Assembly: GCF_002833405.1 (NCBI RefSeq)
Contig: NZ_CP025135.1
Span: forward strand, 1,717,501 to 1,781,500
DNA length: 64,000 nucleotides
From: Planococcus sp. MB-3u-03
GTDB taxonomy: Bacteria > Bacillota > Bacilli > Bacillales_A > Planococcaceae
Reading direction: 5' to 3'
The number at the start of each line of letters is the position of its first letter. Positions within the stretch are counted from its first letter, which is position 1. The notes beneath the pieces were generated by a model. That model was not told the DNA's origin and ran no database searches. It saw only the letters and a program-made list of their open reading frames with translations. Of this stretch, positions 2,779 to 63,692 are shown piece by piece. The position numbers and the translations under genes are program-made.

Positions 2779-4374
2779 ATGATCGTACCATTGACACCGC
2801 TGGACTGGAAACGACGCGCGGTCAAGTATTACCCGGAGAAAGTAGCCGTGATCGACGGAGACAAGCGTTTCACGTACAAGGAGTTTGCCCGCCGCTCCGA
2901 CCAGTTGGGAATTGCCCTACATAATGCAGGCGTCAAGGAAAAAGACCATGTCGCCGTGATGTTGCCGAATACCCATTACATGCTCGAAGCGTTCTATGGC
3001 ATCCCGCCGCTCGGGGCGGTCATCGTGCCGCTCAATTACCGGCTATCGGCCAAAGACTTGGGTTATATCATCAAGCACAGCGACGCGAAAATGCTGATCG
3101 TCGATGCGGAATACGCCAAGTTCATCGAAGAAATCCAAGGCGACTTGCCGATCGAGAACTACATCATCGTGCCGGCTGAAGGGCATGAGACAAGCCTTAC
3201 GGGCATTGGCTACGAGGAATTTATCGGAGCGGTCACTGACGACGAGCAATTGCCAATCGTCGAACTCGACGAGAACCAGATGCTGTCGCTCAATTACACG
3301 AGCGGCACGACCTCGAATCCGAAAGGCGTCATGCAGACGCACCGGACGAATTATTTGAACGGCGCGAACTTCCTGCATCATTTGGAGATTAAGTTCGACG
3401 ATGTTTATTTGCATACCTTGCCGATGTTCCACACGAACGGATGGGGCGGTGTCTGGGCGATCACCGCAGCTGGGGCAACGCATGTGTGCTTGCGCAAAGT
3501 CGACCCGCCGCTCATCCTTGATCTGTTTGAGAGCCACGGCATCACCTCACTGTGCGGCGCGCCGACAGTCGTCAATATGCTGGTCAATGAACCGAAGGCA
3601 AAAACCATTGAATTGAAGACCAAAATCCGTATGGGCACGGCCGGTGCGCCGCCTGCTGCGGCACTCATCGCCAAGGCCCAACAAACGCTCGGCCTCAACA
3701 TGATGCACGTTTACGGGCTGACCGAGACTTCGCCATTCATTTTGTATTGCGAATGGAAAAACGAATTCGATGCGCTGGATGCTGACCAGCAAGCGAGCAT
3801 CAAGGCGCGCCAAGGCATTGAACTGGCCTTTAACGGCGAAACGAAAGTCGTCAATCAGGGAGACGGAAAAGAAGTCGCCTGGAACGGCAAGGAGCTCGGG
3901 GAAATCATCACCCGCGGCAATGTCGTCATGGCGGGCTATTACAAAGATCCTGAGAAAACCGCGGAAGCGATCCGCGATGGCTGGTTCTATACCGGCGACC
4001 TCGCTGTGACGCATCCGGACGGATTTATCGAAATCCAGGACCGCATCAAAAGACATGATCATCTCGGGCGGTGAAAACATCTCCTCCACTGAAATCGAAG
4101 GCGTGCTCTATAAGCATCCGGCGATCGCAGAAGTGGCGGTCATTGCCGTACCGGATGAGAAATGGGGAGAAGTGCCAAAAGCGATCATTGTGCTGCACAA
4201 GGGAGCGGAAGTGACCGAGCAGGAAATTTCGACTATACACGCGACAACATGTCGCGCTTCAAAGTGCCGAAATCGGTCGACTTCGTGGAATCCTTGCCGA
4301 AGACCGCAACCGGCAAGCTGCAGAAGTTCCAATTGCGTGAAATGTATTGGGGCGGCGGCAAGAAAGTCAATTAG
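2779..4374 (+). pseudogene. Acyl-CoA ligase (AMP-forming; FadD-like), two compensating frameshifts
   Basis: ATP-dependent ligase of the ANL superfamily activating a carboxylic acid, probably a fatty acid, to its CoA thioester via an acyl-AMP. Start ATG 2779 follows GAGAGGGG. Motifs: P-loop YTSGTTSNPKGVMQTHR, HVYGLTETSP, GWFYTGDL and the C-terminal lysine motif KTATGKLQKFQ. The frame breaks near 4048, where AAAA stands for AAA (expected DRIKDMIISGGENI), and returns near 4229, where a T-run has lost a base (expected EQEIFDYTRDNMSRFKVPK). With both corrected the protein is 531 residues, the normal length. The two opposite single-base errors in homopolymers point to sequencing error rather than decay. 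The exact acyl substrate cannot be told. Confidence 0.87.
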
Positions 4375-4378
4375 GGAT

Positions 4379-4962
4379 TCAAAAGCGAGAACTCCTCAAC
4401 GGGGGCTCTCGCTTTTTAATGGGGCGCATTCTTTTCCGGCTGCGTTTGCGAATCATCGCAATTAACAACAAGATGACCAAGCACATGCCGAGTACGCTAT
4501 ACAAGACGGAGCGCGGCAGCCACAAAACCAGCCCAAAAGCGACCGCGATTTCAATGGCCATCGCCGGCAGTTTCCCGATCGAACTGGCCCAAAAGAACGC
4601 CAGCGCGGAAATGCGGGTCAAGGCAGCGCCTGCCGTGACGGCGCCTGATGGGACAAACGGCAAGATGCGCAGCGATAACACCGCCCACCATACGCTTGCA
4701 GGGGGTTGATTGCGGAAAACCGGAACCACGAACTCTGTTGCCACGCAACTGGGATATGTTTCGTCCCGTAGCGGTACAGCCAAAATCCAAACAGCGCGCC
4801 GATGATTTCCCCGCTGATGGACAATGCGCTGCCGCCGATTAATCCGAAGCGGTCGAGGTTGACCGGGGTGATGAGAATGCTCGGGATGAACCCAAGCGTG
4901 CCGATGGCGATATTACCGATCAACAACAAGACGAATTCCAAAAAGCGGAGAAGCCAATCCAT
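4379..4962 (-). pseudogene. TVP38/TMEM64 (VTT domain) family membrane protein, frameshifted
   Basis: Integral membrane protein of the DedA/VTT group with about six hydrophobic segments. The N-terminal part has LGFIPSILITP and GEIIGALFGFWLYRYGTKHI; the C-terminal part has LRILPFVPSGAVTAGAAL and FFWASSIGKLPAM, the hallmarks of the VTT fold. The two parts lie in different frames that meet at a CCCCC run near 4710; one added C gives a continuous 194-residue protein through AINPPASVWWAV. A basic tail (RKRSRKRMRPIKKR) ends it. It is 37 bp downstream of the AraC-type gene on the same strand and is probably cotranscribed. Relatives are thought to act in lipid scrambling or transport; the role here is unknown. 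Confidence 0.8.
4380..4417. terminator. Bidirectional terminator between acyl-CoA ligase and VTT gene
   Basis: AAAAGCGAGA pairs with TCTCGCTTTT around a GC-containing inner stem; T tracts lie on both sides, serving the two convergent genes. It overlaps the last codons of the minus-strand gene. Confidence 0.85.
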
Positions 4963-4999
4963 TAGCGCGTCACCTCATTTACGGGCAAGAAAGAGGGTC

Positions 5000-8166: not shown

Positions 8167-9052
8167 GTGAACAATAAATTCCTTTTCGCGTTTCTCGTCA
8201 TCATCACCACCAGTTTGATGGGGTCTTCGTTCGCGGTCGGCAAAATCGGCCTCGAACACGTCTCGCCGCTGCTGTTGGTCGGGATCCGTTTCACGATTGC
8301 AGGCATCTTGATGGCCATATTCGTCAAACTGTTCAAGCGCAAGCATCCACTGCAGCGTTCCGAATGGCTGCATATCCTCATCATCGGCTTTTTCCAGACC
8401 GCTGGTGTCATGGGCTGCATTTTTCTGAGCCTGCGGACGATCACGGCCGGGGAATCCGCCATTTTGACATTCACCAATCCTTTATTGGTGGTGATTTTCG
8501 GCACTGTCGCACTCGGCATCCGCTACCGCATCATTCAATGGGGAGGGGTGCTGCTCGGGTTTTTCGGCGTCTTCATTACGATGGGCAGCCAAGTGAACTT
8601 GGAAGTCGGCACGTTATTCGGTTTCGGCAGTGCCGTGTCCTGGGCAATCGGCACCTTATTGATTAAGCATTGGGGCATTCAGCTTGATACATGGGTGCTG
8701 ACGGCGTATCAAATGCTGTTTGGCGGCTTGATTTTGCTGATGGCAAGCAGCTTATTGGAAACCCAGCGACTGGCCATCAATACAGAATCGCTCTTCATCA
8801 TTTTCTGGCTGGCGATTCCGGCGTCGATCATCCAGTTTGCGATTTGGTTTTCCTGCTGCAAAACGGCAATCCCGGGAAAGTGAGTGCCTTTTATTCCTGG
8901 CGCCATTTTTGGTGTCATCTCAGGATGGCTCGTTTTAGGGAGCAAGTCGGGGTGTCGCTGATTATTGGGGCGCGTTGATCTTTACAGGCATTTTCTTGGT
9001 GAATTGGCCCGAAAAGCGGCAGGAAGCGGCAATTCCTGGAAAAGCCATATGA
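8167..9052 (+). pseudogene. EamA/DMT family transporter, 3' end with several frameshifts
   Basis: Ten-helix drug/metabolite exporter made of two EamA repeats (SLMGSSFAVGKIGLEHVSPL in the first; GFGSAVSWAIGTLLIKHWGI in the second). GTG 8167 follows AGGAG. The frame is intact to about 8855; then five homopolymer runs each need one more base (T-runs near 8857, 8891 and 8910, G-runs near 8940 and 8970) to read FFLLQNGNPGKVSAF, GVISGWLVLGEQVGVSL and GALIFTGIFLVNWPEKR to a stop at 9050-9052. The length plus five is a multiple of three and gives 296 residues, normal for the family. The substrate is unknown. Confidence 0.83.
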
Positions 9053-9600
<548 letters not shown>

Positions 9601-15934: not shown

Positions 15935-16290
15935 GTTTCAACCACGAACGACGTCATTTTTGTTATTTGCAGCTCGCCTTCTCCTTGCCATTCATAAAAA
16001 TCACAATAGCAGTATTTACGCTCCCTGTCATTTCCGCCTTTTGCGGTCATGACGCCTTTTACCGCCCCTTCCTGCCCCGCCGCAATGATGGTGTCGACCT
16101 CAAACGCCATTTTTGTGTAATCCTGCATCCCGAAAGCCGCATCCACTAATGCCTGCCTTCCCTTTAAAGGCATCGTCCCGACCATGATCCATTCCACATC
16201 GTCCGAAACATGCTGTTCAATGAAGTCCTTCTTGCCTTTGAAAAAGCATCATTGAACTCCTTAAAAGTCGGTGGTGCTGCTCGTCTTCAT
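15928..16290 (-). pseudogene. SnoaL-like / NTF2-fold protein, frameshifted near the start
   Basis: Small cone-shaped ligand-binding or enzyme fold. The C-terminal 90 residues are in one frame (EWIMVGTMPLKGRQALVDAA, then TIIAAGQEGAVKGVMTAKGG and CYCDFYEWQ). The N-terminal ~30 residues from ATG 16290 (after GGGAGG) are split: TFKEFNDAFSKGKKDFIEQHVSDD reads only after correcting the ACCACC region near 16270 and restoring one G in a GG run near 16235. With these fixed the protein is about 120 residues, normal for the family. Function unknown. Confidence 0.7.
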
Positions 16291-16457
16291 GGTTTTTCCT
16301 CCCTCGCACTGGTAAACCTTCTTTTACTTGACAGCAAATCATTTTTATCTGAATATTCAACTTTCTTTTAGTTTACTCTCTTTGCTGCACCCTGCCTAGT
16401 CTATTGTTTCCGTTTTATCATGTTTCTTCCGCTTGATCTTTTCCCTGTAAAGCTTGT

Positions 16458-16487
16458 TTTTCATTGCTGTCCTTAAATGGTTATAAT
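16458..16487 (+). promoter_or_regulatory. Likely promoter of the HPr-like gene
   Basis: TTTTCA at 16458-16463, 18-nt spacer, TATAAT at 16482-16487, 44 nt before the start codon. The -10 is perfect, the -35 weak. Confidence 0.55.
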
Positions 16488-16530
16488 GGAAAATGCATTA
16501 TTAGATTAAGCACTGGGAGGATACATCCAT

Positions 16531-16803
16531 ATGGCCAAAACAGTTTTCATTACCGCAGAAGAAGGCTTGCATGCGCGTCCGGCTGCAGCACTCGTCAGTG
16601 AAGCGAACCGCTTCCACTGCGAATTATCGCTAGAATTTAAAGACCGGACCGTCAACTTGAAATCCATACTCGGCGTCATGGGGCTTGGGATTCCGACCCG
16701 TTCTACCATCACGATCCATGCAGACGGCCAGGACGCACAAAAAGCAATACTTGGCACAGCCACCCTACTGGAAGCGCAAGGCATGATCAATTCCGGACAG
16801 TAA
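16531..16803 (+). CDS. HPr family phosphocarrier protein (second, Crh/HPr-like copy)
   Basis: 90-residue PTS phosphocarrier fold. GLHARPAAALV contains the phosphoryl-accepting histidine (His14 here, His15 in B. subtilis HPr) and VNLKSILGVMGLGI the regulatory serine (Ser45, equivalent to Ser46, the HPr-kinase target). The stretch SEANRFHCELSLE resembles B. subtilis Crh, yet Crh lacks the histidine, so this is an HPr with Crh-like features. GGGAGG stands before ATG 16531. A second HPr gene, linked to ptsI, lies at 20697. It may serve regulation or the neighbouring fructose PTS. Confidence 0.88.
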   Translation: MAKTVFITAEEGLHARPAAALVSEANRFHCELSLEFKDRTVNLKSILGVMGLGIPTRSTITIHADGQDAQKAILGTATLLEAQGMINSGQ

Positions 16804-16840
16804 CTCTTTCAGCCACGGAAGGCATTTGGCAGTCGCTGTT

Positions 16841-16911
16841 CCATAGCTTTTGCATAGCTTTTCCATAGCTTTTCCATAGCTTTTCCATAGCTTTTCCATA
16901 GCTTTTCCATA
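16841..16911. repeat. 11-bp tandem repeat, six copies (CCATAGCTTTT)
   Basis: Six head-to-tail copies of CCATAGCTTTT (16841-16906; copy two starts with G), then a partial CCATA. The T4 tracts recur every 11 bp, close to one helical turn, which should bend the DNA. It lies between the HPr-like stop and the terminator shared with the fru operon. Confidence 0.92.
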
Positions 16912-16916
16912 AACGC

Positions 16917-16953
16917 AAAAACCGCCATCCGGAACTTACCGGATGGCGGTTTT
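16917..16953. terminator. Bidirectional terminator between HPr-like gene and fruA
   Basis: AAAACCGCCATCCGG and its exact complement around a 6-nt loop, with A and T tracts on either side. Confidence 0.92.
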
Positions 16954-16964
16954 CAATTATGCAG

Positions 16965-18881
16965 CTACCGTAACATTTTCTTCAGCAAGCCGACGAGGAT
17001 CGCTGTTACAAATGAACCGGCGAGGATAGCAACCAAGTACGTCAAGATGCTTGCCGCTCCCCGTCCACCAGACCGATGACGAATACGCCGCCGTGTGGTG
17101 CACGAAGCCCGATATCGAATAGCATGACGAGCGCTCCGGTCGTTGCCGCTCCTGCAACCGCTGACGGGATGACCCGCGCCGGATCGGCTGCAGCAAACGG
17201 GATAACGCCTTCGGTGATGAAACTAGCGCCGAGAACATACGCGGTCTTACCAGCTTCGCGTTCTGTCTTGGTGAATTTCTTCTTTGAACATCGTCGTTGC
17301 AATGGCCAGTCCAAGCGGTGGGACCATGCCCGCTGCCATGACCGTTGCCATGAAATTGAAGTTCTGTGCATCAAGCATGGCGATGCCGAACGTGTAAAAG
17401 CCGCCTTGTTGACAGGGCCGCCCATATCGACTGCCATCATGCCGCCAAGCAAAAGTCCTACAAGGACCAAGTTGGTTCCGCCAAGCCCTTCAAGGAATGC
17501 TGAAATCCCTGTGTAAATTTGTGTTAATGGCGGGTTGATCAGCATCATGACAACCCCGGTGATGAGGATACTGAAGACCGGATAGAACAGCACCGGTTTC
17601 AATCCTTCAAGACTTTGTGGAATGACAGCGAATACTTTTTCACCAACAGCGTGACATAACCGGCAAGGAAACCGGCAATCAAGCCGCCAAGGAATCCAGA
17701 ACCGCCATTTGCTTCTTCAACACCCGTGACAGTAATGGCAAGCAAGCCACCGATCATACCAGGAGCAAAACCAGGACGGTCGGCAATGCTCATCGCGATG
17801 AATCCGGCAAGGACAGGGACCATTAAGAAGAACGCCGTGCCGCCGCCGATGGTCGAGCATCGCGGCAAATTCATTGTATTGCGGGCTATCCGGATCTGCC
17901 GCGTTGATGCCGAAGAAGAACGACAGGGCAATCAAGATCCCGCCGCCGACAACGAATGGCAGCATGTTCGAAACGCCGTTCATCAAATGCTTATAGAATC
18001 CGGATTTCGGTTCTGTGCCGGCATCTGCGTCTTTTGTGCGGTCATGCTTATAGACAGGCGTATCTTGTGCAAGTGCGCGGTCCAATAATTGGTCCGTTTC
18101 ATAGATCGCTTTGCCGACTTGCGTCTGGATGACATGTTTTCCATCGAATCTCGCCATTTCAACTTTCGTATCGGCCGCGACGATAATGGCGTCCGCTTCC
18201 GCGATTTCTGCATCGGTCAAACGGTTTTCACGCCGCTCGAGCCGTTTGTTTCCACTTTCAAATTGATGCCGCGCTCTTTGCACGCCCGTTGAGCTTCTCA
18301 GCCGCCATATAGGTGTGCGCAATGCCTGTCGGACAAGCCGTCACAGCCAGGATCTTGCCGCCTGCAGCGGGTTCTACTGTGCCGGCAACCGGTGCACTGT
18401 CATCTGCTTGTTCCGGCCCATCCACTTCCGCTTCTTCCGCAGAGACGATGTCGAGCACTTGCTGTTTTGACTCGGCTTCCAAGATATTGACGCGGAATTT
18501 CTCATCCATCAGGAAAGTCGCCAGGCGTGATAAGGCTTCCAGGTGATCATCGTTCGCCCCTGCCGTTGCCGCGATCATGAAAAACAGCTGTGCAGGCTGG
18601 CCATCCAATGATTCGAAGTCAATTCCTTCAAAAGAACGGCCGAACGCGATGGCTGGCGCTTTGACTGCTTCGGACTTCGCGTGAGGGATGGCGATCGTGT
18701 CGCCGATCCCTGTCGTGCTTTGTTCTTCACGGGCCAGGATATCTTTAGTGAATTGCTTCTTGTCGTTCAATTTCCCGGCTTGGTCCAATTGCTCGACCAA
18801 TTCGTTCAATACCTCGCGTTTGGAGCCGGCTTTCAGATCCAGAATGATGGTGTTTTCCGTCAATAATTGTGTAATTCTCAT
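16965..18881 (-). pseudogene. fruA: PTS fructose transporter subunit IIABC, multiple frameshifts
   Basis: Membrane permease that imports fructose and phosphorylates it to fructose-1-phosphate. Order of domains: IIA (about residues 1-145; GDTIAIPHAK with the phosphohistidine), IIB (ILAVTACPTGIAHTYMAAE, active cysteine) and IIC (about ten membrane segments; NGVSNMLPFVVGGG, MGGPVNKAAF, FITEGVIPFAAADP). The pieces lie in different frames, with breaks near 18280, 17860, 17600, 17400, 17280 and 17060. The true C-terminus reads VAILAGSFVTAILVGLLKK to TAG at 16965-16967. It overlaps the fruK stop by 4 nt (ATGA). The total span of 639 codons equals the normal length, so indels nearly cancel and are probably sequencing errors. 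Confidence 0.87.
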
Positions 18882-19810
18882 TTTGTCACATCCTTTTTTT
18901 CGAATGGTGTTACGGTCACTTCAGAGAGCAATTGTTCCACATCTGCCTGTTCGCACAAATCTGTCCGAAAAGCAGTGGCGCTTCCGCTAGCGACGCCGTA
19001 TTGGAATGCTTTGCTCGGATCTTGATGCTGAATATATGAAGCGATGAATCCTGAGACTAAGGAATCTCCCGAGCCGACAGTGTTGACGACTTTGCCTTTT
19101 GGCACTTGGGTTGTGTAGTAATGTTCACGGGAAGCATAGATCGCTCCCGCCCCGCCCATGGAGACGACGACATGTTGGACCCCTCTCTCCACCAGCTGGC
19201 TGGCATAATGGAAAGCTTGTGCTTGGGTGGTGATTTCGACTCCGAAAATATCCCCCAGTTCATGCTCGTTCGGTTTGATGAGGAAAGGCTTTGTATCCAG
19301 CAATTCCTTCAGCGCGGGACCGGACGTGTCGAGCACGAAGTGAATGCCCCGCTCCTGGCAACGATCCGCAAGATCCTTAAAGAATTGGGTCGGCACCGAT
19401 GACGGCAAGCTGCCCGCCAAGACGAACCAATCACCTTGTGCCATAACGGCAACCTTTTCTTTCAATTGTTCAAGCTGCGCTTCCTTTAGCACCGGGCCGG
19501 GCCCATTCAATTCAGTTTCTTGGTCGGTCTTGATTTTGACATTGATCCGCGTGATGGCGCCGGTGTCGATAAAATCGGTTTCAATGCCTTCTGCGTCAAG
19601 GAACTCTTCAATAAAGCGCCCTGTAAAACCACCAGCGTATCCGAGCGCCCGGCTTTTCAGGCCCAAACGGCTGAGTACACGCGAGACATTGATGCCTTTG
19701 CCGCCGGGGTAATAATACACTTCCTCCGAACGGTTCAAGGCGCCGCTTTCAAAATGCGGCAAATAGGCTGTGTAATCAATGGATGGAGCGAATGTGCATG
19801 TGTAGATCAT
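18878..19810 (-). CDS. fruK: 1-phosphofructokinase
   Basis: PfkB/ribokinase-family enzyme of 310 residues converting fructose-1-phosphate, the product of FruA, to fructose-1,6-bisphosphate. Seen: YYPGGKGINVSRVLSRLG near residue 35 and the anion-hole/catalytic motif VNTVGSGDSLVSGF near residue 250. It is the middle gene of fruRKA: it overlaps fruR by 4 nt and fruA by 4 nt. Intact in an otherwise damaged operon. Confidence 0.95.
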   Translation of the reverse strand: MIYTCTFAPSIDYTAYLPHFESGALNRSEEVYYYPGGKGINVSRVLSRLGLKSRALGYAGGFTGRFIEEFLDAEGIETDFIDTGAITRINVKIKTDQETELNGPGPVLKEAQLEQLKEKVAVMAQGDWFVLAGSLPSSVPTQFFKDLADRCQERGIHFVLDTSGPALKELLDTKPFLIKPNEHELGDIFGVEITTQAQAFHYASQLVERGVQHVVVSMGGAGAIYASREHYYTTQVPKGKVVNTVGSGDSLVSGFIASYIQHQDPSKAFQYGVASGSATAFRTDLCEQADVEQLLSEVTVTPFEKKDVTK

Positions 19811-20551
19811 TGTGTCACCACCTTAATTGTAGTTTGTCGTTCGATTTCTTCTAATGCATCATCCGGCAAGCCGTCGATGATAAGTGCGGACCGGCTTAAG
19901 TCGAATATGTGCGCAAAACTGACTTTGCCGAATTTTGATTGGTCCGCAAGCACGTAACAGCTTCTGGATAATTCGCCGACCCTTCGTTTGACGGCCGCTT
20001 CTTCGGGGTCCGGTGTTGTGAACCCGTGTCCGGGGTGAATCCCGTTGACGCCGAGAAAGCTTTTATCAAACCGGTAATTCTCCAGTGACTGGGTCGCCTG
20101 AGGACCAACCAAAGCACCCGTGCGCGACTTGATGAATCCGCCCGTCAAATAGGAAGTGATCCCGTGCTCGTTCAAGGCTTCCAGATGGCTCAGGCCATTT
20201 GCTGTCTCTTATTCACTTCTCCTAGCCCACCTTACTAGTCTTGTTCTCGTGCCTGCATCCAGGAACAACGAATCGCCTGTTTTGACGAGTGAGGCCGCAT
20301 AGCGCGCAACCAGCTGTTTTCCTTCAGGTTCTTGGCCGCTTTATCCGACAAACTCGGTTCCGGCACATTTGAGGCGATCCGGCTGGCACCGCCAAAACGC
20401 GTTCCAGCTTCTGCAATTCCTCAAGTTCCGTCAAATCCCGGCGGATGGTGGATTCTGAAGCCGCTGTCAGTTCGACCAGCTCCTGGATTTTGATGCTCTG
20501 CTTTTCTTTCAAAAGGTTTAAAATCAGTTGATGCCGCTCCGTGGTCAGCAT
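19807..20551 (-). pseudogene. fruR: DeoR family fructose operon repressor, broken by frameshifts and adapter-like sequence
   Basis: Repressor with an N-terminal helix-turn-helix (MLTTERHQLILNLLKEKQ, SESTIRRDLTELE) and a sugar-phosphate sensing domain (DAGT, then GVNGIHPGHGFTTPDPEEAAVKR and VLADQSKFGKVSF). In FruR homologues fructose-1-phosphate releases DNA. ATG 20551 follows AAGGTGA. Frame breaks occur near 20400 and 20340, and bases 20202 to about 20250 do not resemble any part of a DeoR protein but an Illumina Nextera adapter. They replace the roughly 15 residues expected between DAGT and NGLSHLEALNEHG. First gene of the operon. Confidence 0.83.
20202..20253. other. Nextera-adapter-like sequence inside fruR (probable assembly artefact)
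   Basis: The first 29 bases on the plus strand (20202-20230) match the Nextera mosaic end plus i7 adapter start in 26 positions, as I remember that adapter: CTGTCTCTTAT-CAC-TCTCC-AGCCCAC. The three differences are all to T. What follows could be an index plus adapter tail, but TCTCGTGCCTGC merges back into fruR, so the right edge is unclear. Confidence 0.75.
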
Positions 20552-20591
20552 TCAGTCACCTTCTTTTCTTTTCTGATTAAATAGATAATAC

Positions 20592-20606
20592 TTGAAATCG
20601 TTTACA
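20592..20606. promoter_or_regulatory. cre site (CcpA) between fruR and ptsH
   Basis: TTGAAATCGTTTACA fits the cre consensus WTGNAANCGNWNNCW at every position. It lies 41 bp upstream of the fruR start and about 90 bp upstream of ptsH, so CcpA could control either or both. Confidence 0.75.
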
Positions 20607-20637
20607 AAATCAATCATAATCATTCATAAGCAGTCAA

Positions 20638-20658
20638 ATTCATTCAAAAAGAATGAAT
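20638..20658. promoter_or_regulatory. Palindrome, candidate FruR operator
   Basis: ATTCATTC and GAATGAAT flank five A: a perfect 8-bp dyad without a T tract, placed between the divergent fruR and ptsH genes. A further half-site-like TCATTCA lies at 20620. FruR binding is inferred from position. Confidence 0.45.
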
Positions 20659-20696
20659 CCCGCTCAAATACACGCATATTATAGGAGGAAATCATC

Positions 20697-20964
20697 ATGG
20701 TAGAAAACAATATACAATTACAGACGAAGCAGGCATCCACGCTCGCCCGGCATCCGCACTGGTCGGTTCGATCTCGAAATTCCAATCGGACATCACGCTC
20801 GGCTTCAACGGCAAGCAAGTAAACTTGAAATCGATTCTCGGCGTCATGTCGCTTGGCATTGCTTCGGGGTCAACCGTTACGATTGCTGCGGACGGAACGG
20901 ACGAAGAAGAAGCGATGGCTAAAATCGACGAAGTGCTGAAAGCGGAAGGATCTCCAACCAATGA
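20697..20964 (+). pseudogene. ptsH: Phosphocarrier protein HPr, frameshifted
   Basis: General PTS phosphocarrier passing phosphate from EI to the sugar permeases. ATG 20697 follows AGGAGG. After MVE the frame is lost in an A-run (20705-20708): one more A gives QYTITDEAGIHARPASALVG with the active histidine, then VNLKSILGVMSLGIA with the regulatory serine. A second indel near 20950 is needed for the frame to end in the TGA at 20962-20964, which overlaps the ptsI start as ATGA. With both corrected it is 89 residues, the expected size. HPr is rarely dispensable here, so sequencing error is the likely cause. Confidence 0.87.
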
Positions 20965-26106: not shown

Positions 26107-26954
26107 ATGAATGATCCACAAATCCGCAAGACAGCATCATCTGGTCGCAGGAAATGGTGCGCAGCACATTGCCAAAACGCGCACAAGACAGCCATAAAGG
26201 CGTGTTCTGGCACTGCGTTATTAGTAGCTGGAGGCCCGGACATGCCCGGGGCTGCCTTGATTTCGGGCTCGGGCGCTAACAAGCGGCGTCGGAAAATTGG
26301 CAATCGGGACTTACCGCGAAACCATCCGCAGCATCGCTCACGCGGCGGCCGAAGCGACGTATGTGCCAGATGCGCTGATCCATATCGCCAATGGCACCCA
26401 TTCACTCACTTCCTATAAAGCCATCGCATGTGGGCCTGGCACCTTACCGGATGCAGTGACCGAAGCGGCTATTGACAGTTTGCTGAATTCACCTGCCCCT
26501 CTCATACTCGACGCCGGCGCATTGAGTGAACGAAGCTATGTGAAAGAAGCGCACCGCTCATCTTGACGCCGCACGCCGGTGAATTCAGCCGGATCTCAGG
26601 ATATTCAACAGACCAGATGGCCGAGTCTCCCGGTGCATGTGCCTCGGCATTTGCCATGGAGCATGACTTGACCATCGTCTTGAAAGGCCCCGCACAACAA
26701 TCGCTTTCCCGGACGGCGAACTGTTCCACAACCCGACAGGAAATGCCGCGCTTGCAAAGGCGGCACGGGCGATATGCTGACCGGCATGATGCTCGGCATG
26801 CTGTGCTGTCACGAAAACTGGCGCCATGCCGTCTTAAATGCCGTCTACTTGCACGGTGCCTGTGCGGACGAATTCATCAAAACCCGCTCCCCACACAATG
26901 CTTGCACACGATATCGCAAAGCTGCTGCCGGAAGTATGGAAACAATACGAGTGA
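26107..26954 (+). pseudogene. nnrD: ADP-dependent NAD(P)H-hydrate dehydratase, many frameshifts
   Basis: Repair enzyme that dehydrates damaged NAD(P)H hydrates (CARKD/YxkO family, ribokinase-like fold). After TGGAGG, ATG 26107. Matching pieces appear in order across all three frames: TALLVAGGPDMPGAALISG, KLAIGTYRETIRSIAHAAAE, KAIACGPGTLPDAVTEAAID, LILDAGALSERSYVKE, LTPHAGEFSRISGYSTDQ, TIVLKGPA, KGGTGDMLTGMMLGML (phosphate-binding GTGDxL) and a C-terminus ending KLLPEVWKQYE. At least seven indels, mostly in short runs, separate them. The repaired length is about 280 residues, normal. The damage is denser than in any other gene here. Confidence 0.85.
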
Positions 26955-43497: not shown

Positions 43498-44668
43498 CTA
43501 TTTATTCAATTCTGCGAGCACATCAAGCGTTGCCTGTGCCATCAGGCCGGTTCCGATCGACAATGCCTGTTCGTCGATCATAAAGCCCGGGTCATGGAGC
43601 GGCTTCTGGTTCTCCCCAACCGATGTTCCGAGCCAGTAGTAAACGCCTTCGTATTTTTTCAAGAAGCGCCCGAAATCTTCGCCTGCCATGCTTCCGATCA
43701 CTTCTGGAGCAGATTCAGTACCTAATTGCCTCTTGGCAGAGTCACGAACCACTTCAGCCCAGCGTTTCGTATTGACAGTCGCCGGATAGCCATCCGAATA
43801 ATCAATTTCACACGAGCCGCCCATCATTTCAGTTGTGCCTTTGACGACTTCGTGGAAGCGTTTTTTCAATAATTTCTTCGTTTCGTCTGATAAGGAACGG
43901 ATTGTGCCTTCCAACACCACACTATCTGCCACGACATTATAACGGTAGCCTCCCGAGATTTTTCCGATCGTGATGACACCAGAGTCCATCGGGTTGGCGT
44001 TTCGGCTAATGATGGTTTGGATAGCAGACATCACTTGGTTGGCGATGACGATTGCATCAATCGTTTGATGTGGCATCGATGCGTGGCCGCCCGCTCCATG
44101 AATCGTGACGTGAAAACGGTCAGAATTCCCCATGATCGCCCCGTCAATGACGCCGACTTGACCGGCCGGAAGTCCAGGCCATACGTGTTGTGCCAATATG
44201 ACGTCCGGCTGGTACCGTTCGAACACGCCGTCTGCCATCATCTGATCCGCACCGCCAGTCGGCGCATTTTCTTCGGCTGGCTGGAAAATGAGCAATACCG
44301 TTCCTGCGATTTCGTCTTTTTGTTGCTGGAGCAGTTTCCCAACGCCCAAAAGCATCGCTGTGTGCGCATCATGTCCGCATGCATGCATTTTTCCATCAAC
44401 TTTGGATTTGAATGGAACATCCGCTTTCTCCGTAATGGGCAAGGCATCGATATCGGCGCGCAAGCCGACCGTTTTCCTGGCTTGCTCCTTCGATAACGGC
44501 CAGTACACCTGTTTTGCATATCCAGTAAAGTAATGGATGCCATATTCATCGAGCTTTTCTTGTATTTTTCGAAGTTTCCATTTCTTCGCCGCTCAGTTCA
44601 GGCTGTTCGTGGAGATCCCGGCGAAACGCGCGTATTTCTTCAAATAACTCTTGTGCTTGTTGTTTCAT
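43498..44668 (-). pseudogene. M20 amidohydrolase (hippurate hydrolase / aminoacylase-like), frameshifts near the start
   Basis: First gene of the operon. ATG 44668 (AGGTGA upstream) opens with MKQQAQELFEEIRAFRRDLH and [13 protein letters not shown]; then three indels in A-runs (near 44567, 44513 and 44473) break the first 70 residues. From 44508 on the frame is intact: [71 protein letters not shown] and [14 protein letters not shown]. About 390 residues when repaired. The enzyme releases an amino acid from an N-acyl or N-aroyl conjugate. Confidence 0.87.
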
Positions 44669-44690
44669 GGCTGTCACCTACTTTTCGTAT

Positions 44691-44709
44691 TTAAGGAAAT
44701 AAACCTTAA
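44691..44709. promoter_or_regulatory. Palindrome upstream of the abgT operon
   Basis: TTAAGG-AAATAAA-CCTTAA lies 23 bp in front of the first gene. A possible operator for the operon's own regulator; inferred from position. Confidence 0.45.
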
Positions 44710-44789
44710 TCATTCCGTTAATAAAAAGTGTACCGTACTTAAGCAGTAAAATGCTACCACCATTTTGATTTTCTGAATATCCTTTCAAT

Positions 44790-44824
44790 AAAAAAGAAGC
44801 CTTCGCTACTGCAAAGGCTTCTTC
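44790..44824 (-). terminator. Terminator of the gene at 44878-45669
   Basis: AAGAAGCCTT and AAGGCTTCTT arms with a 10-nt loop, then a T tract on the minus strand. Confidence 0.88.
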
Positions 44825-44877
44825 AGAAGTCGAGCTATCTTAATTTTACTGAACGGTGTTATAGTATCGAATGAAAT

Positions 44878-45669
44878 TTAGCCGTATAATGTGGCGAATT
44901 GACTTTTGCGCTGCTCGATGGCAGTGAAAATTGCACAATCGTGCACTTCATTGTATTTGATGCCGAGTGTTTCCAAATATTCAGCCAGTTCGGCGTAAAG
45001 CTTCTCATAGATTTCCATGAATGCCGGGTCGGTGAGTTCGCTGATCGTTTTCGTATAGTCATCCGCCTGTTCCGTTTCGCCCGCTTGCCTCATGACATAC
45101 AGCTCGCTTAAGGTATGGATCAAATGGCGGAATGTGCCTGTAATGTATGGGGTAGAAAAACTTTCTTCCTTTTTCGCCAAGACAAACGGCAAGCTTCTCA
45201 AGAACAAATCTGCCGAGCCTTCCATCTCGTGTCGGATCACTGAACTATGGACCTGACAGAAATACGTCTGCCAGCATTGGTAGCTGTCACTCTTGTCCAA
45301 ATCCTGCCATTCGGCATGCCGCCGGATGTCCATGTTCTGCTTGAAATGCTCAATTGCCTGTCCGATGACAAAGGCAATCAAGGGAATGGTGTCATCTCCC
45401 GATATTTCGATTCCGATGATGCTTTTGACGCCAAACGGATGATGGACGGCTTTCTTGCCGTCAAATTCATCGTCGATGATGCCGTATTCAGTGAAGATCG
45501 CATGGCTGAAATCTTTGCGCTCATTGTAAAAGAAAAGAAGTTCAATTTTATCTTTGAAATTAAACGGTTTATACGCTGTTTTCGCTTTTTTCACCATCGC
45601 CGGAATATCAATTCCCGGCTCTCCATCCATTAATTCAATATAGCGGATCCCTTGTTCCGTAGTTTTCAA
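44878..45669 (-). CDS. Unknown protein
   Basis: 263 residues, apparently soluble and mainly helical in the C-terminal half (FMEIYEKLYAELAEYLETLG). The TTG at 45669 is chosen because GAAGGAG lies 8 nt upstream; an in-frame TTG at 45714 lacks such a site. Sequence features include KPFNFKDKIELLFFYNERKD and IIGIEISGDDTIPLIAFVIG. No motif or family recognised. Monocistronic. Confidence 0.65.
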   Translation of the reverse strand: MKTTEQGIRYIELMDGEPGIDIPAMVKKAKTAYKPFNFKDKIELLFFYNERKDFSHAIFTEYGIIDDEFDGKKAVHHPFGVKSIIGIEISGDDTIPLIAFVIGQAIEHFKQNMDIRRHAEWQDLDKSDSYQCWQTYFCQVHSSVIRHEMEGSADLFLRSLPFVLAKKEESFSTPYITGTFRHLIHTLSELYVMRQAGETEQADDYTKTISELTDPAFMEIYEKLYAELAEYLETLGIKYNEVHDCAIFTAIEQRKSQFATLYG

Positions 45670-46009
45670 TGGTTTAACTCCTTCTGTGTATGTCCATCTT
45701 TCTCCATTTTTCAAGTCATTTCCATTCTCATATGGTTAGCCCTATTATAAGAAAAACCTTTTCAAAAACACAAGCAAGAGCTTTTTCCCTTTTTTCACAC
45801 CGCGTAAACATTCCGATAGCTGACCCGCTGGCATCCTTGTGAATTTCTTATATGCTTTACTGTACCATTTGATGCGCATAAATTATAATTCCCCTGTCTC
45901 TCAGCTCATCAATTAACTGCCTCAAGCCGTTTTCCGTGTTTCAGCTCCCCAATTCCTGCGACTTGCTAATTTCCTGTAAACTTACATAATAATCAGTTAA
46001 ATCCGGTCG

Positions 46010-46023
46010 TGAAAGCGCAGGCT
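46010..46023. promoter_or_regulatory. cre-like site 1 upstream of citZ
   Basis: TGAAAGCGCAGGCT fits the 14-base cre core. CcpA represses citZ in B. subtilis, which supports the reading. Confidence 0.5.
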
Positions 46024-46040
46024 TTATTTTTGAAACCAGA

Positions 46041-46054
46041 TGAAAGCGCTTTAA
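46041..46054. promoter_or_regulatory. cre-like site 2 upstream of citZ
   Basis: TGAAAGCGCTTTAA differs from the cre consensus at one position and has a good CGCTTT core. It lies 31 bp, about three helical turns, from site 1. Confidence 0.55.
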
Positions 46055-46114
46055 AAATAGCGCAACTTAAAGCCCCTGACCGGCAAACCAGAATGATCAA
46101 AAGGAGAGATTTTT

Positions 46115-52827: not shown

Positions 52828-52860
52828 TAAAACAACACCTCCGCAGTGAATAATGAACTG

Positions 52861-52906
52861 AACCCCAAATGGTAGACACTTTAAAAGTGCCCCATTTGGG
52901 GTTTTT
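52861..52906 (+). terminator. Intrinsic terminator inside the left end of the IS
   Basis: AACCCCAAATGG pairs with CCATTTGGGGTT, with a nested CACTTTTAAAAGTG, then a T tract. It partly overlaps the inverted repeat and could shield the transposase from outside transcription. Confidence 0.75.
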
Positions 52907-52960
52907 CTGTTTTCAGACCCCGGTATACTGAACATATCTACTGGAACGGGAGAGGTTGTC

Positions 52961-53382
52961 ATGAGTAAAATCATCTTTAACGAACATCAACGACGCACAT
53001 TGGAAGCGAACCGAATGTCAAAACGGTCTCGGATCGAACGATTCAATACACACCTGAATTTAAGGTGAAAGCCGTCAATGAAAACTTGCAGGGCAAAGGT
53101 CCGGCGCAAATTTTGCCGAAAATGGATTTGACCTGACGGTAATTGGATCGGACAAACCGAAAGAGACATTAAAACGTTGGCGGAAAACGTTCCGACTTTA
53201 CGGCGAAGAAGGGTTTTGGGAAGAGCGCCGTGGAAAAGGCAGTACCGGCCGGCCGTCTACCCAAAAAGCTCTCTGCCGAGAAAAGTTGGAAAAGGCGGAA
53301 GCGCGCATAAAATACCTGGAAGCCGAAAATGAGTTGCTAAAAGCTCGAGGAACTCGAGAGGCAGGCGAAGAAACGCAGCTGA
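52961..53382 (+). pseudogene. IS3 transposase OrfA, frameshifted
   Basis: Helix-turn-helix DNA-binding part of the transposase. ATG 52961 follows GGGAGAGG. Reconstructed: MSKIIFNEHQRRTLEANP, TIQYTPEFKVKAVNENLQG, DKPKETLKRWRKTFRLYGEE, and a C-terminal leucine-zipper helix (EKLEKAEARIKYLEAENELL). Missing bases in C, T and A runs (near 53012, 53115 and 53340) break it. About 143 residues if repaired. Confidence 0.82.
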
Positions 53383-54273
53383 CCCCAGCGGAAAATTCGA
53401 AGCGATCAATGTGGTGGTCCGGAAATTCCAACTGAAGAATATGGTGGATGCCCTCTGCCAGACAGCGGAAGTCAGTCGAAGTGGCTACTATGCTTGGCTG
53501 AAGAAAGTGGAACAGCACGCCATTCGCGAAGAACAGGACTATGAAGATTACCTGTTGCTGAAAAGCATCTACGATGCGCATCGTGGGAAAGTCGGGTATC
53601 GCACCTTTACATGATCCTTACGGAACTGCTGGAAACCCCGATGAATCACAAGAAGATTCTGCGCCTTATGCGCAAATTCAATCTCTTTGCCAAAATCCGG
53701 CGAGCGAATCCTTATAAGCAAATCGCCAAAGCCCACAGAACACGCCGTCTGTCCAAACCTGTTAGACCGTAAGTTTAAACTAGACGAACCCGGCAAGGTC
53801 TTCGTCACGGATATCACGTATCTACCGAACTGGTCGGGACAAATGGCGTATCTGTCCGCTGTAAAAGATATCGCCACCCGCGAAATCGTCGCCTACGAAG
53901 TGACGACGACGCTTACGATGGAAATTGTGTACCGCACGTTACAAAACTGAAGGAAGCATTGATGACAATGTTCACCCGGAAGCGATGATCCATTCCGATC
54001 AAGGCTTCCACCACACCCACCCCGAATACCAACGACGCGTGAAGAAAATGAAATTGACCCAATCGATGTCCCGCAGGGGCAACTGTCTCGACAACGCCCC
54101 ATCGAATCGTTTTTGGTCACTTTAAAGATGAAGTCGAGTTTAAACAAGCGACCAGCCTAGCCGAATTAAAGGGCTGGTGGATGAATACATGGAGTATTAC
54201 AACGGAACGCGCAAACAATGGAACCTAAAAGATGACTCCGGCACAATACCGAAGTCATCTAATCGCAGCCTAG
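53380..54273 (+). pseudogene. IS3 transposase OrfB (DDE integrase core), frameshifted
   Basis: Catalytic part. Pieces in order: RKFQLKNMVDALCQTAEVSR, SGYYAWLKK, KVGYRTFT-MILTELLE, FVTDITYLPNWSGQMAYLSA (first Asp), AMIHSDQGFHHTHPEYQ (second Asp), SRRGNCLDNAP (Glu follows in the expected IESFFG), ending AQYRSHLIAA. At least five indels separate them. Normally made by -1 frameshifting from OrfA; the breaks here are additional. Confidence 0.82.
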
Positions 54274-54379
54274 CTGCCGGGTGCTTTATTAAATCGTCCA
54301 CTAAATGGGGCTCAGTTCATAATCCAACTGCGGAGGTGTTGTTTGGGTTAACATAATAAGATTATCATCAAACTATCTT

Positions 54380-54795
54380 CAACTGTCGATTTTGCCGTAA
54401 GTGATTTCGTCCTCGTCCTGGACATTGACGCCGTTTTCACGTGGACGATCGTCCGTAAAATCAACTTGGCATTCACATTCTCGAGCACCCAGCGTTCATC
54501 CGGTACAATTTCGAATTGCTGCATGACGGTGTTCTTCGATTTTACAGATCCGGCAAATTCCAAGCTCTGCTTGGCAACGGGCGTTTCATAAAATCGAAAT
54601 CACTGTCTTCCCGGTAGTCTTCCACTAAGCGAATCACTTGAAGTTCGATATAATCGATTTCCTGATCGCCGCTTCCTCCGTCCAAGTAGACCGTGCCGTT
54701 CAAGGTTTCACCTTCTTCAAGATGCGGCCTCTCCACTACAGTGTCCACTTTGATCGAACCGATGCCGATCGAAGATAAAAGTCTTTGAATTTCAT
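54380..54795 (-). pseudogene. spo0M: Spo0M-like (arrestin-fold sporulation control) protein, frameshifted
   Basis: Pieces matching the N-terminal arrestin-like half of Spo0M: LLSSIGIGSIKVDTVVERPH, LEEGETLNGTVYLDGGSGDQ, EIDYIELQVIRLVEDYRED, LEFAGSVKSKNTVMQQFEIV, DERWVLENVNAKL, ending RENGVNVQDEDEITYGKIDS. Three or more indels (near 54785, 54590 and 54450) break it. The reconstruction is about 138 residues, shorter than B. subtilis Spo0M (about 258), so it is a short relative. Next to the IS but not cut by it. Confidence 0.72.
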
Positions 54796-57991: not shown

Positions 57992-58256
57992 ATGCAATGG
58001 CTCAGCACATTAGACATCTTTTTCGTGCAATTGATCCTTTTCCGCCGTTTGTCATCTCACTTGGCGTCGCAGCGGCGATACTGGCGAGCCGGATTTTCAT
58101 CGGCCCTCATCACGCTCATATCATCGCTCGAACTGAATTATTGGTATTTTCAACCTTGCTTCCGGAGGCGGATATCCCCATGATGATTGCTTCGTGGGCG
58201 ATCCTGTTTCGCTCCTATCGCTTTATTTTCGTGGATGGCTGTTGCGCCGTCCCTAA
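57992..58256 (+). pseudogene. Putative small membrane protein, frameshifted
   Basis: AGGAGG precedes ATG 57992. Pieces: MQWLSTLDIFFVQLILF, then PFVISLGVAAAILASRIFIG, LITLISSLELNYWYF and a C-terminus NLASGGGYPHDDCFVGDPVS, ending LRRP. They lie in three frames and need a T in the TTTT run near 58031 plus two or more further fixes. Convergent to the MFS gene. Family unknown; the reconstruction is tentative. Confidence 0.45.
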
Positions 58257-58264
58257 ACAAAACA

Positions 58265-59442
58265 TCAAGGTTTTCGATTGAGCAAATAAGCGAAAAGAAT
58301 CATCAGCAAGACGAATGCCAAGAACATCAATAAAGTGATATCGTGGTTGCCTGTTCGGTCATAGACGACTCCGATGATAAACGGCATAAATGCCGAAATC
58401 AAATAGCCCCGGATTGCGTCATCGCAGCCCAGCTATTCGCTTCATCAGCGGAATCCGTCGCATCGAGCGGCAAAAGCAAAGCGATCGGAAACAAACCACC
58501 GAGCGCCACGCCGATCAAAGCGGCAGCAGACCATACCGCCCACGCACCGGCAAACATCAACAAGAAAATGCCGGCAGTTCCGAATGCGAGAACAGCCAAT
58601 ACCCATAAAAAACGGTTCGGGTAACGGCTGAATAGCAGCGGGATCGAAATATTGCAGACAATCTGCACCGCCGTCATGACGGTAACGACCGCTCCTGCCG
58701 ACAGCACGCTCAAGCCTTTGTCGATAGCGATGGGAGCGAGCCACGTCAGCATCGAGAAGAAGAAAGCCGATTGGAAGCCGAAGAACAAAAGCATGTACCA
58801 CGCCTTCAAGTTTTTCCATGGGCTTTCTGTGATCGGCAGCGGATCATCCGGCATTGCTTGTGCTTGCGTTTTTGCCTTCGCTTCAGGCATTCTCAGCCAT
58901 ACGATGAGGGCAGCAATCGCCAAGCCCGACCAGACCGCAAGCCCCGCCGGCCATCCGGAAGCTGCATAGACGACACTCGTCAACCCTGCGGCAAGTGTCG
59001 CACCGAGCCCCATGCCGAACGAATAAACGCCGATCAGGGAAGCTGTCCTGGTTGGGAAATCCCGTTTGATCATTGCAGACAGCATCGGCCCGATGATGGC
59101 GATCGCGATGCCGATGAAAAACGAACTGAGCAATAAATTGAAATAACTCGGCCAAAAGCCGCGTCCTAAAGTAAACACGCCGATGACTGCCAGTAAAAAG
59201 CCGATGGACCACTTCAATCCGAAACGGCGGTTGAAGACGATCGCAAACGGCGCGAACAGCCCCATGCACAGGACCGGAACAGCGGTCAATAAACTGACTT
59301 GCCCGTTCGTCAGCGCGAGATCTGCCCGAATCGGCTCGAGCATCGGGCCGATCGAAGATATGGCCAGCCGTAAATTAAGCGCCACTAGCAAAATGGCAAA
59401 GATGACGCCAGTCAATGCTGATTTTGTTCCAATTCTCCTCAT
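58265..59442 (-). pseudogene. CynX/NimT family MFS transporter, one frameshift
   Basis: Twelve-helix transporter resembling cyanate/nitroimidazole-type permeases: ILLVALNLRLAISSIGPMLE, then NGQVSLLTAVPVLCMGLFAP and SLIGVYSFGMGLGATLAAGL. The frame breaks near 58420 at a G-run; one more G gives MTQSGGYLISAFMPFIIGVV and a C-terminus ending LLNRKP at 58265, total 392 residues. ATG 59442 follows AAGGAGAG. Confidence 0.86.
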
Positions 59443-62386: not shown

Positions 62387-62586
62387 TTAAAGTTTAGTTA
62401 CGTTAGTAGCTTGAGGTCCGCGGTTGCCTTCCTCTACTTCAAATTCTACGCGTTGTCCTTCGTCAAGCGTTTTAAAGCCTTCGCCTTGAATCGCTGAGAA
62501 GTGTACGAATACATCGTCGCCGCCTTCAACTTCGATGAAGCCAAAACCTTTTCTGAGTTAAACCATTTTACTGTACCTTCTTGCAT
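62387..62586 (-). pseudogene. Major cold-shock protein (CspA/CspB family), one frameshift
   Basis: RNA chaperone with one cold-shock domain. [13 protein letters not shown] is followed by an A-run with one base missing (near 62550); with it restored the frame reads [20 protein letters not shown] (RNP1 and RNP2), then [20 protein letters not shown] and [12 protein letters not shown], 66 residues. AGGAGG precedes ATG 62586. Adding one base makes the length exactly 201. Its leader has a large hairpin. Sequencing error is the likely cause of the break. Confidence 0.92.
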
Positions 62587-62640
62587 GTTAAATTACCTCC
62601 TGTGGTAAACAAAATTTTCAATATGCGAACTTTCATAAAA

Positions 62641-62697
62641 ATTCACATATTCCCAAAAGTACCGACACGTGCTGATCACTTTTGGGAATATGTGAAT
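62641..62697 (-). promoter_or_regulatory. Long hairpin in the csp 5' leader
   Basis: Perfect 20-bp inverted repeat (ATTCACATATTCCCAAAAGT at 62641-62660 and its complement at 62678-62697) around a 17-nt loop, inside a weaker outer stem (TTCAA-TATG-GAACTT arms near 62615 and 62715). It lies within the predicted leader RNA. Confidence 0.85.
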
Positions 62698-62732
62698 AGC
62701 TGTTGCGGAAGTTCATATGTTGAATTACCTTA

Positions 62733-62762
62733 ATTATATCAAATTGACTAAAAGTCAAACAA
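62733..62762 (-). promoter_or_regulatory. Likely promoter of csp
   Basis: On the minus strand, TATAAT at 62738-62733. Possible -35 elements are TTGACT (62758-62753, 14-nt spacer) or TTGTTT (62762-62757, 18-nt spacer). The leader would be about 140 nt. Confidence 0.6.
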
Positions 62763-62991
62763 ATCTAAAACTTTCTGAATCTTTTCCAAACTAATTTTCG
62801 GCCTTCTAAAAATCCTTATAAGTATTATGCCAAATTAATGGGAATTTGTAAAGCGTTAATATGTCAGGCCGCTAACGGTCCGGAAGTTTGTATTGGCTCT
62901 CCCGTTCACGTAAAATAAGGGATAAAGACGCGCACAATGAAACTTTTCTGCGCCGCACGTATAGTTTAGTAGCCGTTAAGGAGGTTAAAGC

Positions 62992-63692
62992 ATGAAACCC
63001 ATTAAGCCGATCGAAAACTTCATCAAAGACAATCGGTCAGCCTCCTCTTATGTCCGCCATGTTCCTGATTCTCTATTTAGGGCGGAAATCGGGCTGCTTG
63101 CTTCCGGTGCTGTTGCAGCCGGCACTTATTTTGCCAGCAATACATCGATGAAGCAATACCAGCTGTCGAGCGATTCCAAGCAGCTCGGCATGACGAGAAG
63201 CGAATACCGGAATATCCGCGTGCAGATCAAGGAAGGCAAAGAAAAATCAAAACCTTGCAAAGCCAATATTATAAAGTACGATCCATCTCCTCTTTCAAGC
63301 AATTAATGGATATGGTTAAAATCGCAAATAAAATTTTACTGATCGTCCAGCAAAACCCGCGCAAATTCTATTTGGCAGAACCATTCTTCTATTCGCATCT
63401 GGATTCTGCCATTGAATTGACCGGCAAATATACATTATTGGTCGGACAGCCCGTCAAAGACATGGAGATGCGCATTGCGCTCCAGGAAACGCGTGAAATG
63501 CTTCGTTCATTGCAGCATGTAATGGAAGCCGACCTGAAACGCGTGCTGTCTACGGACGTGGAGCAATTGCGCATGGAACTCGATTATGCGCGGCTCGCTG
63601 TCGACCAGCACAATACGAGAACAATCGAACAGCAACAGCAAATCGAACATAAAGGAGACATGGAAAATGACCAACAATCAGACGAGAAATGA
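62992..63692 (+). pseudogene. xpaC: XpaC-like 5-bromo-4-chloroindolyl phosphate hydrolysis protein, one frameshift
   Basis: TAAGGAGG precedes ATG 62992. The N-terminal part has a hydrophobic stretch (IGLLASGAVAAGTYFASN). The frame breaks near 63247 in an A-run: one more A gives EGKEKIKTLQSQYYKVRSIS and joins the helical C-terminal part (KIANKILLIVQQNPRKFYLA), total 233 residues. In B. subtilis xpaC lies next to yaaN, as it does here next to telA, with a 26-nt overlap. Biochemical role unclear. Confidence 0.85.

Follow-up and report, generated by a model that had tools for sequence, protein, structure and literature searches.

The DeoR-family regulator gene at 19807..20551 (minus strand) of the window, by which we mean the whole 64,000-nucleotide stretch of Planococcus sp. 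MB-3u-03 DNA analysed here, is interrupted, and this raises the question of whether it is broken in the organism or only in its assembly. The damage consists of an in-frame stop contributed by an adapter and of two one-base homopolymer shortenings in the upstream half of the gene. A helix-turn-helix piece (20327-20551) and a sensor-domain piece (19810-20175) still match DeoR-family domains. A sequence-only reading had placed an Illumina Nextera adapter-like segment inside a gene that it called fruR. The family assignment stood, an intact relative being a DeoR-family protein by Pfam; the name is owed to context only, because the gene adjoins a 1-phosphofructokinase gene, which scored above its model cut-off. 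The intact relative matched 10 NCBIfam models, none of which reached its cut-off. Six of nine nearest loci, 87-95% identical in 1-phosphofructokinase, place the genome in Planococcus by their names. On visual inspection, the genes beside the scar that resemble fruA and HPr also appear frameshifted.

We conclude that the apparent broken regulator gene is an assembly error. It is nearly certain that 20202-20250 is the scar of an untrimmed Nextera i7 adapter that replaced native bases, and not a product of biology. The adapter origin proposed by the sequence-only reading is supported by the continuation of the match into an index and P7, by the index of a second scar, by an i5 scar and by the native sequence that all 11 full-length relatives retain. 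In the living organism the gene is most likely an ordinary one, and a regulator adjoining the fructose genes is thereby cleared of a false pseudogene call.

The adapter match at 20202-20250

The letters of the mosaic end, which is Tn5-derived, and of the i7 arm are those of the Nextera adapter. Searching the window for the 29-base adapter start with up to 3 mismatches returned one match, 26 of 29 bases at 20202-20230, and the same search returned none in 100 dinucleotide shuffles of the window. The count was exactly that given by the sequence-only reading, which was also right in noting a change to T at each of the three differences. The alignment extends further, without gaps, to 40 of 49 bases at 20202-20250 against the mosaic end, i7 adapter, 8-base index and P7 start (the runner-up place for the 49-base adapter in the window reached 26 of 49). 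Consistent with this, positions 1-49 of a 66-base adapter query aligned at 20202-20250 in a whole-genome BLAST (82%, E 4.0e-7).

All parts lie on the plus strand. The mosaic end (20202..20220; 17 of 19 bases, no gap) begins where homology to relatives ends and is followed directly, again ungapped, by the i7-side adapter arm (20221..20235; 11 of 15 bases). The i7 index (20236..20243) reads TAGTCTTG, two purine-to-T changes from TAGGCATG, and the P7 start ATCTCGT (20244..20250; 6 of 7 bases) stands at the correct spacing after it, so that the expected layout of an 8-base index and then ATCTCGTATGCC holds for six of these seven bases. The remainder of P7 is absent because native sequence resumes inside 20244-20250. 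TCGT at 20247-20250 is compatible with adapter and native gene alike, and the join of adapter to gene therefore runs through these four bases, leaving 20202-20246 (45 bases) as the adapter-only portion. Thus, of the extent 20202..20253 proposed earlier, the start was right and the end lay 3 to 7 bases too far, since the adapter-only part stops at 20246 and the full match at 20250.

Support for the adapter letters is provided by viral contigs, where the matches listed show the intact 29-mer (in at least 120 stretches), then index-like 8-mers and then ATCTCG. The intact 29-mer lay at most 100 bases from the end of a stretch in 122 of the 123 matches listed (120 viral stretches). The only one farther than 100 bases from a stretch end among these 123 was mid-contig, at 4953-4981 of a 9,673-base viral contig (L095).

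The 8-mers that follow the intact adapter among the listed viral-contig matches provided 12 indices for comparison; GCTGACAA, seen once among the matches listed and without ATC after it, was left out. While TAGTCTTG is 2 changes from TAGGCATG, it is at least 5 away from each of the other 11, and TAGGCATG followed by ATCTCGTA occurs at least 11 times in the viral contigs. Random 8-mers came within 2 changes of any of the 12 indices in 4.9% of draws, and did so through purine-to-T changes alone in 0.3%. An alternative reading made by eye, with index CGTACTAG and a deleted block in the i7 arm, was rejected, as the gapless TAGGCATG reading aligns query positions 1-49 and CGTACTAG is 5 away from TAGTCTTG at the index position.

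The differences from the adapter follow a pattern. All nine mismatches sit on adapter purines (8e-5 under random placement, by a post hoc test), eight of them changed to T (1e-3, likewise post hoc) and one to C, and no adapter pyrimidine in 20202-20250 is altered. The purine-to-T pattern may reflect a low-quality read tail, by analogy with late-cycle overcalling. According to the available portions of one report, late-cycle G-to-T and later A-to-T miscalls occurred with older Genome Analyzer chemistry, and C was read as T as well in the same work on thymine accumulation (PMC2745764). The scar resembles what these portions describe in that G and A are read as T; it differs in that its pyrimidines are unchanged, which counts against the analogy.

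No exact 12-base adapter word was found in the window with the five adapter strings searched, and the longest exact word inside the scar is 11 bases. With so many base changes, an exact adapter search would miss the scar. The altered 29-mer gave no match in either the genome contigs or the viral contigs, so that this error pattern is without parallel elsewhere in the two collections, and this counts against the adapter reading.

The native gene in relatives and biological alternatives

The regulator gene was matched in 33 of the 40 genus genomes searched, including its own. In the relative G020, 51 native bases stand where the window has the 45 bases of 20202-20246. On the gene strand the motifs DAGT and NGLSH are retained, and the 18 residues between them in G020 have become 16 codons, one of which is a stop. 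The earlier claim that residues between DAGT and NGLSHLEAL had been replaced was therefore correct, its estimate of roughly 15 corresponding to 18 residues in G020 and 16 codons here. The native stretch is kept in all 11 full-length relatives (76-91% identity), where the native 21-mer is present at 19-21 of 21 bases, and the adapter is absent from all of them, the scar aligning without gaps at no more than 22-26 of 49 bases on either strand. Presence of the stretch in fruR of related strains, which the sequence-only reading had named as evidence against an adapter, was thus found in none of these 11. Nor was a scar seen in 13 more distant loci (L017-L029; best match 27 of 49). The native 21-mer reaches only 13-17 of 21 there and is not recognisable, so these 13 loci are weaker evidence.

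These comparisons bear on whether the stretch could be real. The Nextera mosaic end is a derivative of Tn5 ends, and one alternative is that a Tn5/IS50-type transposon with an end similar to the mosaic end truly inserted here or replaced native sequence. Such a transposon carries a transposase gene between its two inverted ends and makes a 9-base target duplication. In 20000-20500 a search for inverted repeats of at least 12 found none, and the edges of the scar, CTCAGGCCATTTG and TCGTGCCTGCATCC, differ from each other and stand 51 bases apart in G020, in disagreement with a 9-base duplication. Moreover, a transposase gene would not fit into 45 bases, 51 native bases have been lost, the match runs on through the synthetic i7 arm, the index and the P7 start, and the same index appears again at a second site. 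We regard a transposon as extremely improbable. The same holds for native divergence of the regulator gene with a chance likeness to an adapter, for which the chromosome-size contig and the homologous flanks on both sides would speak, but which is opposed by the native bases kept in 11 of 11 full-length relatives, the stop that the stretch introduces, the very low likelihood of a chance match of such quality and the occurrence of two other pieces of adapter elsewhere in this genome.

Two further scars and published cases

The second scar lies at C13:2127242-2127281 (L004 1501-1540), 390 kb from the window scar on the same contig, and consists of the mosaic end with one base missing, the i7 arm and TAGGCAT, together 40 of 41 adapter bases. 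It is the only other i7 scar, and TAGGCAT is intact in it; the i5 scar has no i7 index. The presence of one index at two scars indicates that both probably came from the same library. The third scar (C13:1595587-1595612; L002 1501-1526) is on the reverse strand and shows, by BLAST, 92% identity to the i5-side adapter across 26 bases. By eye, the gene at this third scar resembles a response regulator. At both the second and the third scar the adapter replaces native bases that are present in 4 of 4 relatives, and the flanks align to relatives on both sides.

With up to 3 mismatches, the genome has three mosaic-end-like places, which are the three scars, and a reversed-pattern control gave none. 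At this threshold 14 of the 46 genomes of the genus, its own among them, have a match to the mosaic end. At this base rate the mosaic end alone proves nothing, and it is the adapter arms and the comparison with relatives that carry weight. The whole-genome BLAST also returned a 14-base P7 match at L160. Two candidates with 14 exact bases were rejected as scars and serve as controls: L161 is native, with two of four relatives carrying the identical bases and the other two differing by one base, and L164 aligns unbroken to 2 relatives with 2-3 differences within the 14 bases. A Nextera mosaic-end remnant, GTGTATAAGAGACAG, was seen at the start of a relative's contig (G012:C5; L206 1-35).

The case is like the adapter contamination of microbial assemblies described in the available portions of PMC11536531, in which adapter and adjoining adapter-specific letters occur in published contigs. 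The cases given there involve the Illumina universal adapter, mostly at contig ends, and Nextera is unnamed in its main text as available. Unlike them, the present scars come from the i7 and i5 sides of the Nextera adapter and replace native bases in the interior of a contig of chromosome size. Contamination is reported there to be concentrated at contig ends, as far as the available text goes, whereas the window scar lies deep within a contig of 3,378,540 bases, which is a point against the adapter reading. An internal, heavily miscalled scar is nonetheless the same kind of error as published adapter contamination. Elsewhere in the genus, Nextera XT was used for Planococcus sp. CP5-4_YE and companion strains, according to the available part of PMC8933910; a search for literature on the library of strain MB-3u-03 found none.

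We suspect, with more doubt than confidence, that untrimmed adapter can silently replace native bases in finished-looking chromosomes, with miscalls that evade exact-match screens, and that scars of this kind may often, without being counted, give rise to false pseudogenes in species-representative genomes; the genome-collection scan covered the altered 29-mer, of which 0 were found. For the present assembly, at least three adapter scars together with clustered homopolymer errors serve as a warning.

Consensus quality and the route of entry

As to how the scar arose, we envisage that a Nextera (tagmentation) Illumina library with index TAGGCATG was sequenced, and that reads of short inserts would have run on into the i7 adapter and been left untrimmed. 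Low-quality tails of one or a few reads may be the source of the scar and would account for the changes of purines to T. The adapter would then have entered the consensus where correct reads were scarce, and could have been rejoined to the gene through TCGT.

The surrounding consensus is of uneven quality. Over the 57,683 bases of the window covered by two relatives, 58 one-base deletions and 13 one-base insertions are common to both comparisons; 32 of the deletions are in runs of 5 or 6 and 13 outside any run, and the scar itself contains one of the insertions. Taking the pure runs in G018 that are at least 5 bases long, we find 47 that are shorter in the window and 183 that are not. The shortened runs are clustered, with 28 adjacent short-short pairs, a number reached in 0 of 5000 shuffles. 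GC near the shortened runs is 0.451, compared with 0.478, in a comparison in which runs are not independent. One patch of clustered shortenings, a lower-quality consensus at 20317..20951, adjoins the scar; others, identified against two relatives, are at 4228-4716, 8848-9530, 16241-18280, 26124-26889, 44476-46110, 54434-54781, 58042-58411 and 62549-63242. These patches look like long-read consensus left uncorrected, and the clustering suggests a mixed short- and long-read assembly.

Within the adapter reading, the adapter may have bridged a small gap in coverage or come in through polishing by reads left untrimmed, in either case inside short-read sequence, or it may have entered at a seam where a long-read gap fill meets a short-read contig. 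About 70 bases separate the right end of the scar from the patch of shortened homopolymers, into which the adapter points, and the nearest informative run leftward (18580) is intact, both in favour of a seam. Against it, that run is the single informative one between 18225, which is shortened, and the scar. Because the window scar adjoins and points into its patch, homopolymer errors were predicted to the right of L004 and to the left of L002. Within 1.5 kb to the left and right of these two scars, no homopolymer indel was common to 3 or more of the 4 relatives; the only two indels so shared were located at the L002 scar and, as a non-homopolymer indel of 3 bases, immediately to the right of the L004 scar. 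With this failure we reject a general rule that scars mark the edges of error-rich patches, and for the window scar alone we keep entry at a seam as a tentative option, less likely than not.

Error density also varies elsewhere in the genome. L161 (3014 bases, C13 around 1130549) is a very error-rich patch, with 41 deletion rows in 3 kb, each common to at least 3 of 4 relatives and a few perhaps doubled; L002, L004 and L164 are nearly clean. Within the window, about 1.5 kb at 52853-54319 is found elsewhere and inverted in G020, and is perhaps an insertion sequence.
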